The notes beneath the pieces were generated by a model. The model was not told the origin of the DNA. It saw nothing but the letters and a program-made list of their open reading frames with translations, and did not search any database. DNA of 49,285 nucleotides from Actibacterium sp. (GTDB lineage: Bacteria > Pseudomonadota > Alphaproteobacteria > Rhodobacterales > Rhodobacteraceae). Below are positions 2,789-30,654 of the stretch, piece after piece. Numbering within the stretch: position 1 is the first letter of the stretch; every line of letters starts with the position of its first letter. The DNA lies in the NCBI GenBank assembly GCA_016278285.1, contig JADQCD010000049.1:1-49285 (forward strand), read 5' to 3'. The position numbers and the translations under genes are program-made.

Positions 2789-3712
2789 ATGCCCCTGACC
2801 GGGGAGCATCCCGAAGCCGGCGATTTGCGCCTGGTCCTGGTGACCGGCCCCTCCGGTGCGGGACGCTCGACCGCACTGAACGCCTTCGAGGATCTCGGCT
2901 ATGAGGCGATCGACAACCTTCCGATATCCCTGATCCCGCGCCTGCTGTCCCGGCCGGCCCCGGAGGGGCCTCTGGTGCTCGGGGTGGACACCCGGAACCG
3001 CGAGTTCAGTTCGACCGGCCTGGCCGAGTTGTTCGCGCAACTCAAGCATGACCCGCGCGTGCAAGCCGAGATCCTTTACATCGATTGCTCCGCCCCCGTC
3101 TTGCTGCGCCGGTTCTCGGAAACCCGGCGCCGCCACCCCATGGCCCCGGCGGAAAGCCCCGAACGCGGAATCGCGCTGGAGCTGGATCTTCTGACGCCAA
3201 TTCGCGCCCTTGCCGACGCCCTTATCGACAGCACCGAGATGACCCCCCACGACCTGCGCGCGGAAATCGCAACCCAGTTCGATCGCAGCGGCGGCGCACG
3301 GCTGGCGGTTTCGATCCATTCATTTTCCTACAAGCGGGGCATCCCGCGCGGGGCCGACATGGTGTTCGACTGCCGCTTCCTGCAGAACCCGTATTGGCAG
3401 GACAGCCTGCGCCACCTGGACGGAACCGCGCCCGGCGTGGCGGCCTATGTGGCACGCGATCCGTTGTTCGACGAATTTTTCGCGAAGATCCTGGATCTGC
3501 TTCTGTTGTTGCTGCCGGCCTATACCGACGAAGGCAAATCCCACCTGTCTATCGCCCTGGGCTGCACCGGTGGACAGCATCGATCGGTCGTCGTGGCCGA
3601 AAAACTGGCCGATGCGCTTGCAGCGACAGGATGGCGGGTGTCTAAAAGACATCGAGAGCTTGAACGAAAAGCCCGCATCGACGGGACCAACCTGATGGGG
3701 AAGACTGCGTGA
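2789..3712 (+). CDS. rapZ: RNase adapter protein RapZ (YvcJ family P-loop)
   Basis: [29 protein letters not shown]-terminal [17 protein letters not shown]. Confidence 0.93.
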
Positions 3713-4101
3713 TCGGCATTGTGATCGTGGCGCATGGCGGGCTTGCCCGGGAATATCTGGCAGCGGTCGAGCATGTGGTCGGCAAGCAACAGGGAATCCG
3801 TGCAATCTCGATCGCGCCCGACCACAACCGTGGCGCCAAACAGGCCGAGATCGCTGTTGCGGCGGATGAGGTCGATGACGGCAGCGGTGTTGTCGTTGTT
3901 ACCGACATGTTCGGCGGTTCGCCCTCCAACCTGTCGCTTCGGGCCTGCGACCGGCCCAATCGCAAGATCCTTTACGGCGCCAACCTGCCGATGCTGATTA
4001 AACTCGCGAAATCGCGCCGGATGCCGATGGCGGATGCCGTCGCGGGCGCGCTCGATGCAGGGCGGAAATACATCAACTGCTTCGACGGGCAACCGGGCTG
4101 A
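3709..4101 (+). CDS. PTS mannose-type EIIA component
   Basis: [16 protein letters not shown] (active-site His), [18 protein letters not shown]; 4-nt overlap with rapZ. Confidence 0.9.
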
Positions 4102-4120
4102 ACCCGTCGCGGGGCGCAAC

Positions 4121-4390
4121 ATGGCAATCATTCACCTGAACATCATCAACGAGAAGGGCCTGCATGCCCGCGCCTCGGCCAGGTTCGTCGAAACCGTCGA
4201 GGCGCATGACGCTCGGGCCGAGGTCCGCCGCGACGGCCTGTCCGCCTCGGGCGACTCAATCATGGGGCTTTTGATGTTGGCAGCCTCCAGGGGAACGACT
4301 ATTGAGGTCGAAACGAGCGGGCCAGACGCCGAGAAACTGGCCGCCGCCTTGAAAACCCTTGTCGCGGGTCGCTTCGGCGAAGATTACTGA
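4121..4390 (+). CDS. ptsH: HPr family phosphocarrier protein
   Basis: NEKGLHARASARFVE (active-site His) and GDSIMGLLMLAAS (Ser46 region); start at ATG 4121. Confidence 0.93.
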   Translation: MAIIHLNIINEKGLHARASARFVETVEAHDARAEVRRDGLSASGDSIMGLLMLAASRGTTIEVETSGPDAEKLAAALKTLVAGRFGEDY

Positions 4391-4406
4391 GCGGGGCGGC
4401 CCGGCC

Positions 4407-5294
4407 GTGTTGGAGGGACGGAAACCCTTGGTCGAAAGCTATCAGGACGGCGCGCCCCGGCTGGACGAGTCGAACCGCTATGACAAGCGGAAACTGTCCT
4501 ATGCGACGACCTTCACAAACCCGGTTCAGAGCGCGGTGATCCGCACGATGGAATGGATGACCGGCAAGGTGACGCTTCTGCGGCTGATCCGGCAGTACGA
4601 GAACGCCGGGCGCGTGCATGGACAGGAATTCTGGCGCACCGCGCTGCGCATTCTCGACATCCCCGTGATCACGCCGCCCGAACAGTCCGACCGTATCCCC
4701 CGCGAAGGACCGCTCGTGATTGTGGCGAACCATCCGCATGGCCTGGTCGACGGAATGATCCTCGCCGAACTGGTCGGCCGGGTTCGGCGCGACTACAAAA
4801 TCCTGATCCGCTCACTTCTGACCGGGGCCGGTGAAATCGAACCTTTCGTGATCCCCGTGCCCTTTCCGCACGAAAAGGACGCACGCGCCCAGAACCTGCA
4901 GATGCGTCGCCAGGCAATGGAACAGCTCAGACAGGGAGGCGTCGTGATCCTGTTCCCGTCCGGGTCGGTCGCGTCCAGCGCATCATGGTTCGGTCTCGCG
5001 ATCGAGGCGGAATGGAGCGCCTTCACCGCCAAGATGGTTCAGAAATCCGGCGCAGTCGTGGTGCCTGTCCGGTTCCGCGGCCAGAACTCGCGCGCCTACC
5101 AGATCGCAAACCGGCTGTCGGCGACGTTGCGCCAGGGGTTGCTCATCCACGAGGTCGTGCACGCAAGACACAAGCCGCAGGCGCCGATCGTGGGTCATCC
5201 CATCCCGCGAAACGAGATCGAGACCTGGGCTGGAAACCCGCGTGGGTTTGTCGCCTGGCTGCGCGCCCACACCCTGGCTCTGACTGACAGCTGA
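4407..5294 (+). CDS. PlsC-like 1-acylglycerol-3-phosphate acyltransferase
   Basis: VIVANHPHGLVDGMILAEL (NHx4D-like) and VVILFPSGSVASS; GTG 4407 or TTG 4428 are likelier starts than ATG 4359, which overlaps HPr. Confidence 0.8.
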   Translation: MLEGRKPLVESYQDGAPRLDESNRYDKRKLSYATTFTNPVQSAVIRTMEWMTGKVTLLRLIRQYENAGRVHGQEFWRTALRILDIPVITPPEQSDRIPREGPLVIVANHPHGLVDGMILAELVGRVRRDYKILIRSLLTGAGEIEPFVIPVPFPHEKDARAQNLQMRRQAMEQLRQGGVVILFPSGSVASSASWFGLAIEAEWSAFTAKMVQKSGAVVVPVRFRGQNSRAYQIANRLSATLRQGLLIHEVVHARHKPQAPIVGHPIPRNEIETWAGNPRGFVAWLRAHTLALTDS

Positions 5295-14669: not shown

Positions 14670-16199
14670 GTGCGCGGACCGCATAATATTTGGCGGCTGA
14701 TCCGCACCGGCGCGACGCTCGAACGCACTGGCGCGATGGGCGCGGTGCTGGCCGCGTTCGACGCGCCGCGGCACCTGCGCATCCTGGCGCGCGTAATCGG
14801 ATGGCCCTTCGCGTGGCTTGGCTATCGCGGCGATCCGGCGCACCCGCCCGTTCCGCGCGCGCTGACCGCGTTGGGTCCGGCCTATATCAAGTTCGGCCAG
14901 ATTCTTTCGACCCGACCCGATGTGGTGGGCGACGAGCTGGCGCAACAATTGCGGGTGCTGCAAGACAAGCTTCCGCCATTTTCCATGGAAGCGGCCAGGC
15001 AGACCATCGAAGCCGAGCTTGGTCTGCCGGTGGATCAGATCTTTTCCGATTTCGGCGCGCCGGTCGCGGCAGCGTCCATCGCGCAGGTGCACAAGGCCCG
15101 CCTGGCCGACACCGGCGAGGAGGTCGCGGTCAAGGTCTTGCGTCCACGGATCGAGCGGGATTTCCAGAAGGATATCGACGCTTTCTATTTCGCCGCCGGC
15201 CTGGTCGAGGCGCTGTCTCCCTCATCGCGGCGCTTGCGTCCCACCGACGTGATCGCGCATTTCGAAGGCGTGGTGCTGGGCGAGCTGGATCTGCGACTGG
15301 AAGCCTCGGCCGCATCGGAATTTGCCGCGAACACGGCCGAGGATGACGGGTTTTTCGTGCCCGAACCCCACTGGTCCTTCAGCAGCCGCCGGGTGCTGAC
15401 GCTGACCTGGGCCGAGGGCATTTCCCTGGGCGACAACCCCGCCATCGACGCTGCGGGGCATGACCGGCGCGAACTTGGCGAACGGGTGCTGCGCTTCTTC
15501 CTGCGCCACGCCCTGCGCGATGGTTTTTTTCATGCGGACATGCACCAGGGCAACCTGAAAGTCGCGGCCAATGGCGACATCATCGCGCTGGACTTCGGAA
15601 TCATGGGGCGGATCGACGAATATACCCGCCGCGTCTATGCCGAGATCCTGTTCGGGTTCATCCGCAAGGATTATCGCCGCGTCGCGGAAGTGCATTTCGA
15701 GGCCGGATATGTCCCCGCCGACCGGGACATGGATGAATTCGCCCGCGCGCTGCGGGCCGTGGGCGACCCGATTTTCGGCATGGATGCCTCGCATATCTCG
15801 ATGGGACGGTTGCTGAGCTATCTTTTCGAGGTGACGGAACGCTTCGGGATGCAGACACGCACCGAATTGATTCTGCTGCAACGGACAATGGTGGTGGTCG
15901 AAGGTGTGGCAAGGTCGTTGAACCCGCACACCAACATATGGGAGGTCGCTCGCCCGATCGTCGAGGATTACATAAAGGAAAATGTAGGGCCCAAGGCCTT
16001 CCTGCGCGATCTGGCCCGCACGATCGTGGTGCTCTCGCGCTTCGGTCCGAAATTGCCGCATATGGCCGAAGCCGCCTTGCTGCGTCAGGCCGGGCCTGCC
16101 GACCCTCCAGCCCGGCCCTCGCGGTTCTGGCCCGTTCTCTGGCTGATCCTCGGCGCCGGTGCGGGGGCCGGCGCAGCGATGCTTGCCTTCACGCTTTAG
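14670..16199 (+). CDS. ubiB: 2-polyprenylphenol 6-hydroxylase / ABC1-UbiB kinase-like
   Basis: LGPAYIKFGQILSTRPDVVG, VAVKVLRP, FFHADMHQGNLKV, ALDFGIMGRID; GTG start. Confidence 0.93.
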   Translation: MRGPHNIWRLIRTGATLERTGAMGAVLAAFDAPRHLRILARVIGWPFAWLGYRGDPAHPPVPRALTALGPAYIKFGQILSTRPDVVGDELAQQLRVLQDKLPPFSMEAARQTIEAELGLPVDQIFSDFGAPVAAASIAQVHKARLADTGEEVAVKVLRPRIERDFQKDIDAFYFAAGLVEALSPSSRRLRPTDVIAHFEGVVLGELDLRLEASAASEFAANTAEDDGFFVPEPHWSFSSRRVLTLTWAEGISLGDNPAIDAAGHDRRELGERVLRFFLRHALRDGFFHADMHQGNLKVAANGDIIALDFGIMGRIDEYTRRVYAEILFGFIRKDYRRVAEVHFEAGYVPADRDMDEFARALRAVGDPIFGMDASHISMGRLLSYLFEVTERFGMQTRTELILLQRTMVVVEGVARSLNPHTNIWEVARPIVEDYIKENVGPKAFLRDLARTIVVLSRFGPKLPHMAEAALLRQAGPADPPARPSRFWPVLWLILGAGAGAGAAMLAFTL

Positions 16200-16870
16200 C
16201 CTGCCGGATCACGCAAACCGGATACATCGTCAACCGCGACACGCATCCCGCCCTCCAGAACCAGAACCGGTTTGCCATCCTCGATCCGCGCCTCGGAAAT
16301 CATCGAATAGACCTGGGGGGGCGAACTGTCGATCACCCCGGTTCCGTCAATGCTTTCGACTGCGAAACTGTATTGACCGGCAGGCAGCCGGGCCCCGCTC
16401 GCGGTCAGACCGCTCCATGTCATCGGCTGGTTGGAAAGGCCGATGTCCAATCGCTGAACCGCCGCCCCTTCGGCGTTGCGGACGACCAGTTCGGCCCGTT
16501 CCGCGGCCGGGTCCGGCGCCGGATCGATGGTCACCGGGGTTCCGTCATAGAAAACCGGCGCGGCGACCCGAGCTTCCTTTCCAACCCAACCGGCATATTG
16601 CGAGATTCCGGCGCCTCCCAACTGGTTTGCAAGGTCGGACAGGATGTTATTCGTCTGAACCTGCTGCTCGACATTCGAGAACGTGGCCAGCTGCACCGCG
16701 AAATCCGTGGACTTCACGGGGTTCAAGGGATCCTGATTTTGAAGCTGTGTCGTCAACATGTTCAGGAAAGTTTCGAAATCCGAGCTTATGACCGGCGAAT
16801 TACTGTTCTTCGTTTCAGTGGCTCGCACCGGGCCCGTCGTGCCGGCAGGGGCGGTTTGTGTAACGTCCAT
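16196..16870 (-). CDS. flgD: Flagellar hook capping protein FlgD
   Basis: SSDFETFLNMLTTQLQNQDPLNPVKSTDFAVQLATFSNVEQQVQTN. Confidence 0.92.
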   Translation of the reverse strand: MDVTQTAPAGTTGPVRATETKNSNSPVISSDFETFLNMLTTQLQNQDPLNPVKSTDFAVQLATFSNVEQQVQTNNILSDLANQLGGAGISQYAGWVGKEARVAAPVFYDGTPVTIDPAPDPAAERAELVVRNAEGAAVQRLDIGLSNQPMTWSGLTASGARLPAGQYSFAVESIDGTGVIDSSPPQVYSMISEARIEDGKPVLVLEGGMRVAVDDVSGLRDPAG

Positions 16871-16882
16871 GGGGCATTCCTT

Positions 16883-17941
16883 TCACAGGCGAATGTCCAA
16901 CCCGTCGGCTGGCTCAGGGGCGGATGAATGCGGTTGCGGCATATCCGCGGCGGGCGCGTCCGGTTGCGGTTCGGCCCGCTCGGGCAGCGGTCCCGGGGTC
17001 CCATGCCCGTGCTGACCCGACCCGGCGAAATTGAAACGGACGTCCCGGTAACCGAGATCGCGAAATTCCTGGGCAAGCGTATCGGCATGCCGCCGGAACA
17101 GTTCGGCGGTTTCCGGGCGGTCGGCGCTGATTGTGACCGTGATCCCCGAGTCGCCCGGCGACAGGGTCATCCGCAACCGGCCCAGTTCTTCGGGGCTGAG
17201 GGTCAGATCGACAGTGTCGTTCGACGCCTGGTGAAGGGCAACGGCCATCTGGTTCAGCACCGTTTGCGGCGGCAGAGCCGGCATGGATGAGGCGGAAGGT
17301 AAAACGCTGCGGGGCCCCTCGGGTCCGGCGGGCGCCGTCGTCAGCTGGGCCTGGGCCTCGGAAGGCATCATGTCGGATGGCAGAGCGGGCGAGCCGCCGA
17401 GCGCGATCCCCCCCTGCGTCGGCCCCCCTTTTGCCAATTGCGAGTCCGCGGCTGCTGGCCCGGGCGGGGCGGAACGATCCGATTGTGGCCCTTGGCCTTC
17501 CATTTCTGGCGATCCTTCCCGCGTTGGCTTCGCGTCCGGCGAGAAAGCCGGCAGGCCCCTCTCATATTGCGCGAATGCGGTTCCGCTGCCCGCCGCACGG
17601 GTGGCGCGCATCATGACTTCCCCGGTCGCGCCGGCGGTCGCCCCGCCGGCCATTGACCGGCGCCCCTCCTCCAGCCTTGCCATTCCGGCGGGTTCCGGGG
17701 GATGCCGCATCGCCTTTGCTTCATCGCCGACGCGGCGGAATGCCCCGAGGCCCATCTGCAACGGCCGATCCGTCCGGGCGTCACCGCTTTTTTTCTGTCT
17801 CGACCGGTCTCGTGACACATCAGCCGGACCTACCGCAACAGGGGCCTGCGCGGCCGGCCCTCCGCCCTCATGGAGCGCCCCGGAAAAGGGCCCAGGCGGC
17901 AGCCAGCCCGGCGATTCCATCGTCGTGGCCGCTGGCACCAT
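16883..17941 (-). CDS. fliK: Flagellar hook-length control protein FliK, C-terminal part (see split finding)
   Basis: C-terminal domain: VDLTLSPEELGRLRMTLSPGDSGITVTISADRPETAELFRRHADTLAQEFRDLGY. Confidence 0.82.
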   Translation of the reverse strand: MVPAATTMESPGWLPPGPFSGALHEGGGPAAQAPVAVGPADVSRDRSRQKKSGDARTDRPLQMGLGAFRRVGDEAKAMRHPPEPAGMARLEEGRRSMAGGATAGATGEVMMRATRAAGSGTAFAQYERGLPAFSPDAKPTREGSPEMEGQGPQSDRSAPPGPAAADSQLAKGGPTQGGIALGGSPALPSDMMPSEAQAQLTTAPAGPEGPRSVLPSASSMPALPPQTVLNQMAVALHQASNDTVDLTLSPEELGRLRMTLSPGDSGITVTISADRPETAELFRRHADTLAQEFRDLGYRDVRFNFAGSGQHGHGTPGPLPERAEPQPDAPAADMPQPHSSAPEPADGLDIRL

Positions 17942-19139
17942 TGCCGGCAGTGTTGGTTGCGTCCCTCCCCGCGTCCGTCCTTTGCGCGGCGGGGATTTTC
18001 ACATGACGCAGATTCGGCGTCGTGTTCTTGCCATGACGCGCCTTTTCGGACTGCCCGCCCCCTGGAAGCAGACCCGCACCAGCCTTGACACCGTCGCGTC
18101 GCGCTTCGGACACCACGGATGAAGCGTCCGTCGCGGTGCGCCCCATCGTAACCTTGTGCCCGCTGTCATGCGGCTCTGCGCGCATGCGTTTATGGCCAAG
18201 ATCGGAAACAGGTGTTGGGCCCATTTTCAAAATTCGCTCATTCGCATCTTCGACACCAGAGGCCGGCATCGTGGACGGATTGCGCGCAATCCGTTCATTC
18301 CCGTTCGTCAAGGCCGCGAATCCGCCCTTTTCGGTTTCGCCCCCCGCCAATCCGACCGAACGGCGGGAAAGCCCGTCTTGCGGATCAGAGGCCCTTTCGG
18401 GCCGCAAGGCATCGGCGGAATGGTTTCTCGTGCCGCTCTTCGTTCGAATTTTCTCCACCCGATTCCCCAGCCTTTCCGCGGCGGTGGTTTCGGCGCGAGC
18501 GACAGCGGCAGGTCTGTCATTCGGCGACGCGACGGCACTTTCAGCCCCAGCAGGGACGTGCCCGACCTTGTCTGACAATCGCTTGTCCACATTGGCGAAA
18601 GCGCCCGGAAGGGTGACGTTGTTCGGAATATGTTCGCCATTGACGCCACTCTTCGGATTGACCGGGCCTGGCCCGGTGCTGGCCCGGAAAACTGTGTCTG
18701 CGTGCGCGACGAACTGCATTGCCGTGGCGCTGCCCTCGATCGAGGGGATGCTGGGCTCGGACCCGAGGACAATTGCCCCGGCACCCTGGTCGGACTTGTC
18801 CGCCTGGTGCTGTTTCCCCGGCGGTTCGGTCATGCCTGCCAGCAGCTGTCGATCACGGTCGTCAACCACGCCGAAAGGACGCACATCCTTGGGACCCGCC
18901 GCCAGAAAGGCTGGCGACGGCCCACCGTGCGAAGCGGGTCTTTTGGGAATCTGCCCGGGCGGGCTTGGTATCATCCCTTCGCGCGCTTCAAGCGCGCTGG
19001 CTGGCCAGGTTTTCGCGGAAATTTCCATCTCCGCGGCGAAGCTGTCCGTCATCGCGCTGACTGGAACCACCGCGAAAGGCGCGCCTTTCCTGGCGGAACC
19101 GGCCGCATAAACCCCTTCTGGGCGGATTGTGTTCGGCAT
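17868..19139 (-). CDS. Probable N-terminal part of FliK in a different frame
   Basis: 423-aa low-complexity ORF immediately upstream of the FliK C-terminal ORF on the same strand, overlapping it by 74 nt; no independent domain recognised. Confidence 0.55.
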   Translation of the reverse strand: MPNTIRPEGVYAAGSARKGAPFAVVPVSAMTDSFAAEMEISAKTWPASALEAREGMIPSPPGQIPKRPASHGGPSPAFLAAGPKDVRPFGVVDDRDRQLLAGMTEPPGKQHQADKSDQGAGAIVLGSEPSIPSIEGSATAMQFVAHADTVFRASTGPGPVNPKSGVNGEHIPNNVTLPGAFANVDKRLSDKVGHVPAGAESAVASPNDRPAAVARAETTAAERLGNRVEKIRTKSGTRNHSADALRPERASDPQDGLSRRSVGLAGGETEKGGFAALTNGNERIARNPSTMPASGVEDANERILKMGPTPVSDLGHKRMRAEPHDSGHKVTMGRTATDASSVVSEARRDGVKAGAGLLPGGGQSEKARHGKNTTPNLRHVKIPAAQRTDAGRDATNTAGNGASGHDDGIAGLAAAWALFRGAP

Positions 19140-19189
19140 TTCTTCCTCGGCGGCGTGCCTTCAATGCCGACCAGTCTTGCCCCCGGAGG

Positions 19190-19204
19190 TTACCACTTCT
19201 TTAC
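19190..19204. promoter_or_regulatory. CtrA-like site TTAC-N7-TTAC in divergent fliK / rod-binding gene intergenic
   Basis: TTAC CACTTCT TTAC read directly; 6/8 to TTAA-N7-TTAA. Confidence 0.35.
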
Positions 19205-19254
19205 CCGTACAGGGTCATAAACCCGAAAACCCATCGCAATTGAAGGAATTCCGG

Positions 19255-19533
19255 ATGCCAGAGATTGCCGCCATGACCAGCGCCACAGCACCCACCACGC
19301 CCGATATGCAATTGCGCCGGCTTTCGCGAGAGCTGGAAGTCAACTTTATGGCCGAAATGCTGAAATCCGCGGGCTTCGGCAAGGCGCGCGATGCTTTCGG
19401 CGGCGGCGCCGGGGAAGAACAGTTCGGCTCTTTCATGCGCCGGGCGCAGGCCCGGGAAATGGTCAGATCCGGCGGGATCGGCTTGGCCGAGCACCTTTTC
19501 GAAGCCCTGAAGGAGCGTGCTGATGGCGAATGA
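19255..19533 (+). CDS. FlgJ-like rod-binding protein without muramidase domain
   Basis: LEVNFMAEMLKSAGFGKARDAFGGGAGEEQFGSFMRRAQAREMVRSGGIGLAEHLFEAL. Confidence 0.8.
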   Translation: MPEIAAMTSATAPTTPDMQLRRLSRELEVNFMAEMLKSAGFGKARDAFGGGAGEEQFGSFMRRAQAREMVRSGGIGLAEHLFEALKERADGE

Positions 19534-29209: not shown

Positions 29210-29569
29210 TCACCATCCGCGCCGCCTGGATCGCGCCAGAAGGTTCGTCAACGCCTGATCGCGGCCAAGCGCAAGCTTCGCGGCGCGCCTGGCGCGGCTT
29301 TCCTCGGCACGCGCGCGCGCCAGCGCCATGTTCAACTCGGCGCGTCTTGAATCGGCCCACCGTTGCCACAACAGATCGACGCCGGCCCGCGTTGACGCGG
29401 ATTCCACGTTTGCGCTTACCCTGCGCCGATCCGCATCCAGCCCGGCGATGGATTCTTCCAGCTCGCGCCCGGCTCGGACTGCCTTTTTCAGCCGCGACAG
29501 GTTGACATCAAGCGCCAATCGGGTGACCCGATTCAACCGCGCGGCTTTTTGGTGATATGGCGGGATCAT
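29210..29569 (-). CDS. Small coiled-coil protein, possible FliJ analogue
   Basis: Highly charged, Arg/Ala-rich helical ORF at the end of the flhA-fliR-flhB operon, overlapping flhB by 4 nt. Confidence 0.55.
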   Translation of the reverse strand: MIPPYHQKAARLNRVTRLALDVNLSRLKKAVRAGRELEESIAGLDADRRRVSANVESASTRAGVDLLWQRWADSRRAELNMALARARAEESRARRAAKLALGRDQALTNLLARSRRRGW

Positions 29570-30654
29570 GGCCGCAGCCCTGCGCTCGCGCGCATCTTCT
29601 CGGCAAATCGGATCGCAGCGGCCACGGCCTTGTAATGTTCGCGCCGGATTTCCTCGCCGATTTCGACACTGGCATAAAGGGCCCGCGCCGTCGGCGGATC
29701 CGAATGTATCGGAACACCGTGTTCGACGGCGGTTTCGCGAATTCGGGCAGCGATCTCATCCATCCCCTTCGCCACGCAGACCGGCGCGCCGGGACCTGAA
29801 CGATCCCATTTCAGCGCAACAGCGAAATGCGTCGGGTTCACGACCACGACATCGGCGGCCGGCACATCGGCCAGAACCTGCTTCATGGCAATGGCCGTCC
29901 CGCGCTGGCGTCGCTGGTTTTTCATGTGGGGGTCGCCCTCGGACTGCTTGACCTCGTCCTTGAGCTCCTTGTGCGACATCCGGTTCTTCCGCAAATGTTC
30001 AAAAATCTGCCAGACATAATCGATTACCCCGATGAAGGTGGAAATCACCACGACCACGAGAATGAACTCGAGCGACATGCGCATCATGCGCGCGACGGCC
30101 ATGGCAGGGGAAAGGTGCATGACCGTCAGGATTTCGGGCAGGCGCCGGATCAGGTAAAGGGCGAGAAGGATGCAATATACCGCAAGCTTTGTTGCGCTCT
30201 TCGCAAATTCGAACAGGCCCGCACGGCCAAACTTGCTCTTCGCATTCGAGATTGGGGAAATTCTGGAAGCTTTCGGCAGGAGTTTTTCCGGTGCGACGAT
30301 CAGGCTGCGTTGCAGAAGGATGGACAGAAGCACCAGCACCGCAGGGCCCAGAAACCACGGAGCGACCGCCAGAAGGATCGTGCCGGCCAGTCCGCCGCCC
30401 AGGGTGGTCGCGCTGCCGTCAAAGAAACGCGGGGCCAAAGAGTCGGCCTGATCGAAAAGGACAAGTCCGGAATTGGCCAGCTTCAAGAGTGATGCGGCGC
30501 CGATACTGGCCGCCACCAGCGACAGCCCCGCATATCCGGCAGCTGCGTTAAGATCCGCCGACCGGGCAACTTCACCCTTTTTCCGTGCATCCTCAAGCCG
30601 CTTGGCTGTCGGATCGTGGCTTTTTTCCTCGTCGTCGGAACCCGCGCCACTCAT
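29566..30654 (-). CDS. flhB: Flagellar export protein FlhB
   Basis: EKSHDPTAKRLEDARKKGEVARSADL; autocleavage motif VVVNPTHFAVALKWD. Confidence 0.95.
   Translation of the reverse strand: MSGAGSDDEEKSHDPTAKRLEDARKKGEVARSADLNAAAGYAGLSLVAASIGAASLLKLANSGLVLFDQADSLAPRFFDGSATTLGGGLAGTILLAVAPWFLGPAVLVLLSILLQRSLIVAPEKLLPKASRISPISNAKSKFGRAGLFEFAKSATKLAVYCILLALYLIRRLPEILTVMHLSPAMAVARMMRMSLEFILVVVVISTFIGVIDYVWQIFEHLRKNRMSHKELKDEVKQSEGDPHMKNQRRQRGTAIAMKQVLADVPAADVVVVNPTHFAVALKWDRSGPGAPVCVAKGMDEIAARIRETAVEHGVPIHSDPPTARALYASVEIGEEIRREHYKAVAAAIRFAEKMRASAGLRP

Follow-up and report, generated by a model that had tools for sequence, protein, structure and literature searches.

The window, i.e. the 49,285-nucleotide stretch of DNA analysed here, comprises a whole contig (G000:C148) of the 3.11-Mb draft genome of an Actibacterium sp. 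(G000, 322 contigs) and carries a flagellar cluster of the Rhodobacterales type. Within this cluster, the hook-length control gene fliK is divided between two overlapping reading frames (Table 1). Both open reading frames (ORFs) were found exactly at the coordinates reported in the first-pass annotation. The codons quoted there for the end of ORF 1 and for ORF 2 were also correct, as was the offset of +1 (equivalently -2) from ORF 1 to ORF 2.

Table 1. Features at and around the split fliK gene of the window
Feature	Position	Strand	Description
fliK N-terminal half (ORF 1)	17868..19139	-	423-aa ORF, MPNTIRPEG...; low-complexity ruler/linker part
fliK C-terminal half (ORF 2), hook-length control/specificity-switch domain	16883..17941	-	352-aa ORF; frame open from 17998
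Overlap of both frames	17868..17998	-	frame map; must contain the net +1 (or -2) change
flgD, hook cap	16196..16870	-	intact, directly downstream of fliK; PF03963 (6.5e-17), PF13860 (5.6e-14); 77% to the congener G001, one frame
flgJ-like rod-binding protein gene	19129..19533	+	divergent, marks the upstream fliK end (synteny anchor); PF10135 (5e-7)
flhB, FliK partner	29566..30654	-	full length; TIGR00328 at residues 9-351 of 362 (E 5.4e-90)

Since the frame of ORF 2 opens right after a TGA at 18001-17999 (a stop that had first been placed near 18003), the break has to lie within the overlap, at the other end of which ORF 1 is terminated by a TGA at 17868. The GC content by codon position showed a switch of the coding phase between approximately 18000 and 17900. 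Two scans for the site of the frame change were both nearly flat over 17870-17975: a codon-model scan weakly prefers the region around 17930-17975, by only a few log units, and the scan of the junction against the FliK of the congener yielded scores of 814-832. The hook domain PF02120 (Flg_hook) was detected in ORF 2 at residues 236-310 (E 1.3e-14, 54.2 bits compared to a cut-off of 29.8). For ORF 1, no Pfam match was obtained, and a search of the genome for a second PF02120 protein found ORF 2 as the only match. On the opposite strand, a 341-aa ORF (18085-19110, +) runs antisense to fliK; like many other long ORFs of this GC-rich window, it is spurious.

Relation of the two ORFs to FliK

The sole other Actibacterium genome compared (G001) is a MAG of Actibacterium sp. 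Soudan_12_2, with the contig JADQCB010000007.1 assigned by match. Its FliK is encoded by a single 756-aa ORF. In BLASTP, ORF 1 matches residues 1-416 of this protein (26%, E 4e-10), and its C-terminal end is matched by ORF 2 (E 2e-58, 61% over 193 aa), so that the two halves are colinear with the two ends of the FliK of the congener, with one frame for each end. Since low-complexity sequence can mislead, the frame specificity of the N-terminal half was tested. The global score against the FliK of G001 was 221 in the frame of ORF 1, compared to -95 and -86 in the other frames and to 1.0 ± 20.7 for shuffled sequences (maximum of 52 in 300). Without the first 40 residues, the score was 140, compared to -2 ± 19 for the shuffles.

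ORF 1 and ORF 2 are two halves of one FliK. As in relatives, the start of fliK adjoins the divergent flgJ-like gene, and with flgD as the other neighbour the flagellar context of a FliK is present. The ruler part and the switch domain, in turn, stand in different frames, +1 apart, and are not encoded as one polypeptide. The intact gene of the congener together with the synteny in the family thus bears out the earlier proposal of one fliK split by a frameshift, with the N-terminal half in ORF 1 and the hook domain in ORF 2. In annotation, gene callers would give two hypothetical proteins or a pseudogene for this one gene.

Broken and intact fliK copies in the Rhodobacteraceae

A search of the contigs with ORF 2 alone matched nothing, and a profile of ten hook domains was successful. 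The profile scan yielded 80 named loci, nearly all of them from Rhodobacteraceae, 75 of which could be judged by the extension of the hook-domain frame to the divergent flgJ-like gene, taken as the upstream end of fliK. In 72 of these 75 loci, fliK was one frame up to the flgJ-like gene, while the hook-domain frame stopped short in the remaining three (L181, L184 and L199, all MAGs). A two-ORF layout conserved among relatives as separate proteins, which the first-pass annotation had considered, was therefore not found. This bears directly on the assumption that the ruler and the switch are made as separate N-terminal and C-terminal proteins in the window organism. Although the overlap offers ORF 2 an ATG at 17941, no Shine-Dalgarno-like sequence was found before 17941, 17938 or 17920, and the C-terminal part would be made without the N-terminal export part of FliK. 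Together with the missing conservation of the layout, this makes two separate proteins highly improbable.

In the whole family, the domain was present in 252 of 298 genomes, and three further breaks (G014, G010 and G202) were found among the shortest open frames. Altogether 20 short-frame FliKs, suspected of being split as well, were fetched, comprising these three split copies and three uninformative ones cut by a contig end; among the remaining, one was cut by the upstream contig end or simply short, and, apart from the short match of G012, the rest were naturally short or in one frame.

The near-complete genome G014 (2 contigs) showed a fliK split of -1 that coincides exactly with an A4G7 tract and has a GTGA stop/start overlap (L100:1895-3879, G014:C1); the split could originate from slippage (phase variation) or from a homopolymer error. 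In G202, a fliK-like gene upstream of fliL is split at a T7 run (L109:1819-3773, G202:C14), and the +1 split of G010 falls within a sequence that contains G6 and C6 runs (L110, reverse strand 3182-4727, G010:C3). The broken copies of the three MAGs (L181:3152-5387, L184:1768-3384 and L199:3856-5402) are independent of each other, and at L199 flgD is frame-broken as well.

With respect to direction, the window, L181 and G010 show +1 breaks and G014, G202 and L199 show -1 breaks, while in L184 a stop interrupts fliK without a change of frame. The distances of the breaks from the hook domain also differ. Since the breaks differ in frame, place and cause, they are independent, and fliK breaks are rare and scattered with no shared two-frame design. 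As a survey result, nearly all checked Rhodobacteraceae loci have a one-frame fliK, with a few independent breaks in the linker.

This distribution also has to be considered for a programmed +1 ribosomal frameshift, by which the two ORFs would be joined into one FliK. The overlap of two frames that are both kept open and the read-through length of 751 aa, which is close to that of the congener, would be in agreement with such a mechanism. However, fliK is one frame in the congener and in the 72 intact named relatives, and the other broken copies shift at other places, in other directions, or are interrupted by a stop. Moreover, ORF 1 ends with GCT CCA TGA and not with a prfB-like slip site (CTT TGA or CCC TGA), and a Shine-Dalgarno-like stimulator was not found before its stop. 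In the literature, no paper was found dealing with both programmed frameshifting and fliK, and no report of a programmed or phase-variable fliK in Rhodobacteraceae was found. Altogether, programmed frameshifting is extremely improbable, and the same low degree of belief applies to its species-specific variant, in which a non-canonical site would set the ratio of ruler-only to full FliK and thereby tune the hook length. Phase variation by slippage at a repeat tract is practically negligible for the window: the 7-base homopolymers at the breaks of two relatives (A4G7 in G014, T7 in G202) could slip, but no run above 4 is present in the window overlap.

In the named loci, flgD was broken in 1 of 79 cases (L199) and other real neighbours in 0 or 1 of about 50, compared to 3 of 75 for fliK, which is the longer gene. 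The neighbour control by tblastn produced many false breaks, caused by long spurious ORFs that extend over two genes, so the count was restricted to real genes. The break rate of fliK represents a mild excess at most, and the data are too thin for a hot spot.

Integrity of the assembly and cause of the frame change

The window is colinear with G001:C43 from 16.2 to 49 kb, and no frame break was found in the other genuine genes of this region. Full length or nearly full length was observed for FlhA, FlhB, FliR, FlgG, FlgH, a FliI-type ATPase, MotA, FliL and flagellin. The comparison was extended to 0.74 Mb of G000 and 0.80 Mb of G001, comprising 189 gene pairs outside fliK. Six candidate breaks in each direction were checked by the codon-position pattern of mismatches. 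According to this pattern, the candidates in G000 were spurious out-of-frame start extensions of ORFs, except for a single ambiguous candidate located where a contig ends, leaving no clear frame break elsewhere in about 185 comparable genes. Accordingly, the assembly of G000 is not full of indels, although a single error is possible. In the opposite direction, a true single-base break was observed in an 835-aa gene, which is broken in G001 (L126:11947-14450, G001:C27) and intact in G000 (L140:1241-3748), with 90% identity on both sides of the break. Assemblies of this type can thus contain single breaks of this kind.

The split very probably goes back to one sporadic frame change, be it a mutation or a consensus error, and all other readings taken together are unlikely. 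From the four explanations offered by the first-pass annotation, sequence error and true mutation thus remain, while separate proteins and programmed frameshifting are disfavoured by the one-frame relatives and by the absence of a slippery stop, a ribosome-binding site and a conserved break position. Neither half has lost its open frame, and the divergence of the hook domain is still biased by codon position. As decay is seen neither in the halves of fliK nor elsewhere in the cluster, the break is either recent or only apparent.

If it is only apparent, the fliK of the organism would be intact and a one-off small indel would have entered the consensus within the overlap. This is quite possible, at somewhat less than an even chance. 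It is in agreement with the lack of decay in either half and with the fragmentation of the assembly into 322 contigs, and the MAG with fliK and flgD both broken (L199) demonstrates that poor assemblies can yield such breaks. All other examined flagellar genes are intact, which would be equally compatible with a working flagellum and therefore with an error. Two observations speak against an error, namely the lack of another clear break in the approximately 185 comparable genes and the shortness of the runs in the overlap (4 at most). The latter also limits the weight of the homopolymer runs pointed out in the first-pass annotation: they are real, but outside the overlap fliK reads in frame through runs of 5-7, which argues mildly against a homopolymer-type error and for a mutation.

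A real and recent mutation of fliK in the sampled strain or population is slightly preferred, with about an even chance. A one-base consensus error would give the same picture, and the comparison includes one genome of the species. For a mutation, we infer an ancestral fliK of about 750 codons and one small event of net +1 or -2 in the disordered linker, at codons of approximately 380-423. Translation from 19139 would then stop at the TGA at 17868 and give a product of 423 aa, in which the ruler part is kept and the switch domain is lost. The downstream hook domain would lack a start, the ruler and the N-terminal export part, so that neither its synthesis nor its proper delivery to FlhB would be expected.

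In Salmonella, the N-terminal part of FliK serves as the ruler, and its C-terminal switch domain acts on FlhB while FliK is being secreted; the loss of FliK results in polyhooks, no filament and non-motile cells (PMC13060781). Some C-terminal changes of FlhB bypass the loss of FliK in this organism (PMC13060781). Based on the coverage of TIGR00328, a truncation of FlhB of this kind was not found in the window genome, and FlhB shows 87% identity to the compared part of the FlhB of G001. For a real break, a fliK-null phenotype with polyhooks, without filament and without motility would be predicted, and the strain would then allow the function of FliK to be tested in a simple way in this lineage.

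Comparison with known systems

The gene for release factor 2, prfB, is an example of programmed +1 frameshifting. The window fliK shares with it the overlapping frames and the +1 offset, but differs by the lack of a slip-prone codon before the stop, of an upstream stimulator and of conservation. Compared to FliK proteins in general (PF02120), it has the conserved hook domain, the flgD neighbour, the divergent flgJ-like gene, the low-complexity N-terminal part and the single copy in common, while the frame change interrupts its coding sequence, so that it is not one ORF. The split fliK is a sporadic defect, neither a new kind of gene nor a programmed frameshift. Nothing was found that sets it apart from sporadically frameshifted flagellar genes, which are associated with motility loss or assembly breaks and with which it shares the single change, the intact cluster without decay and the unaffected congener.
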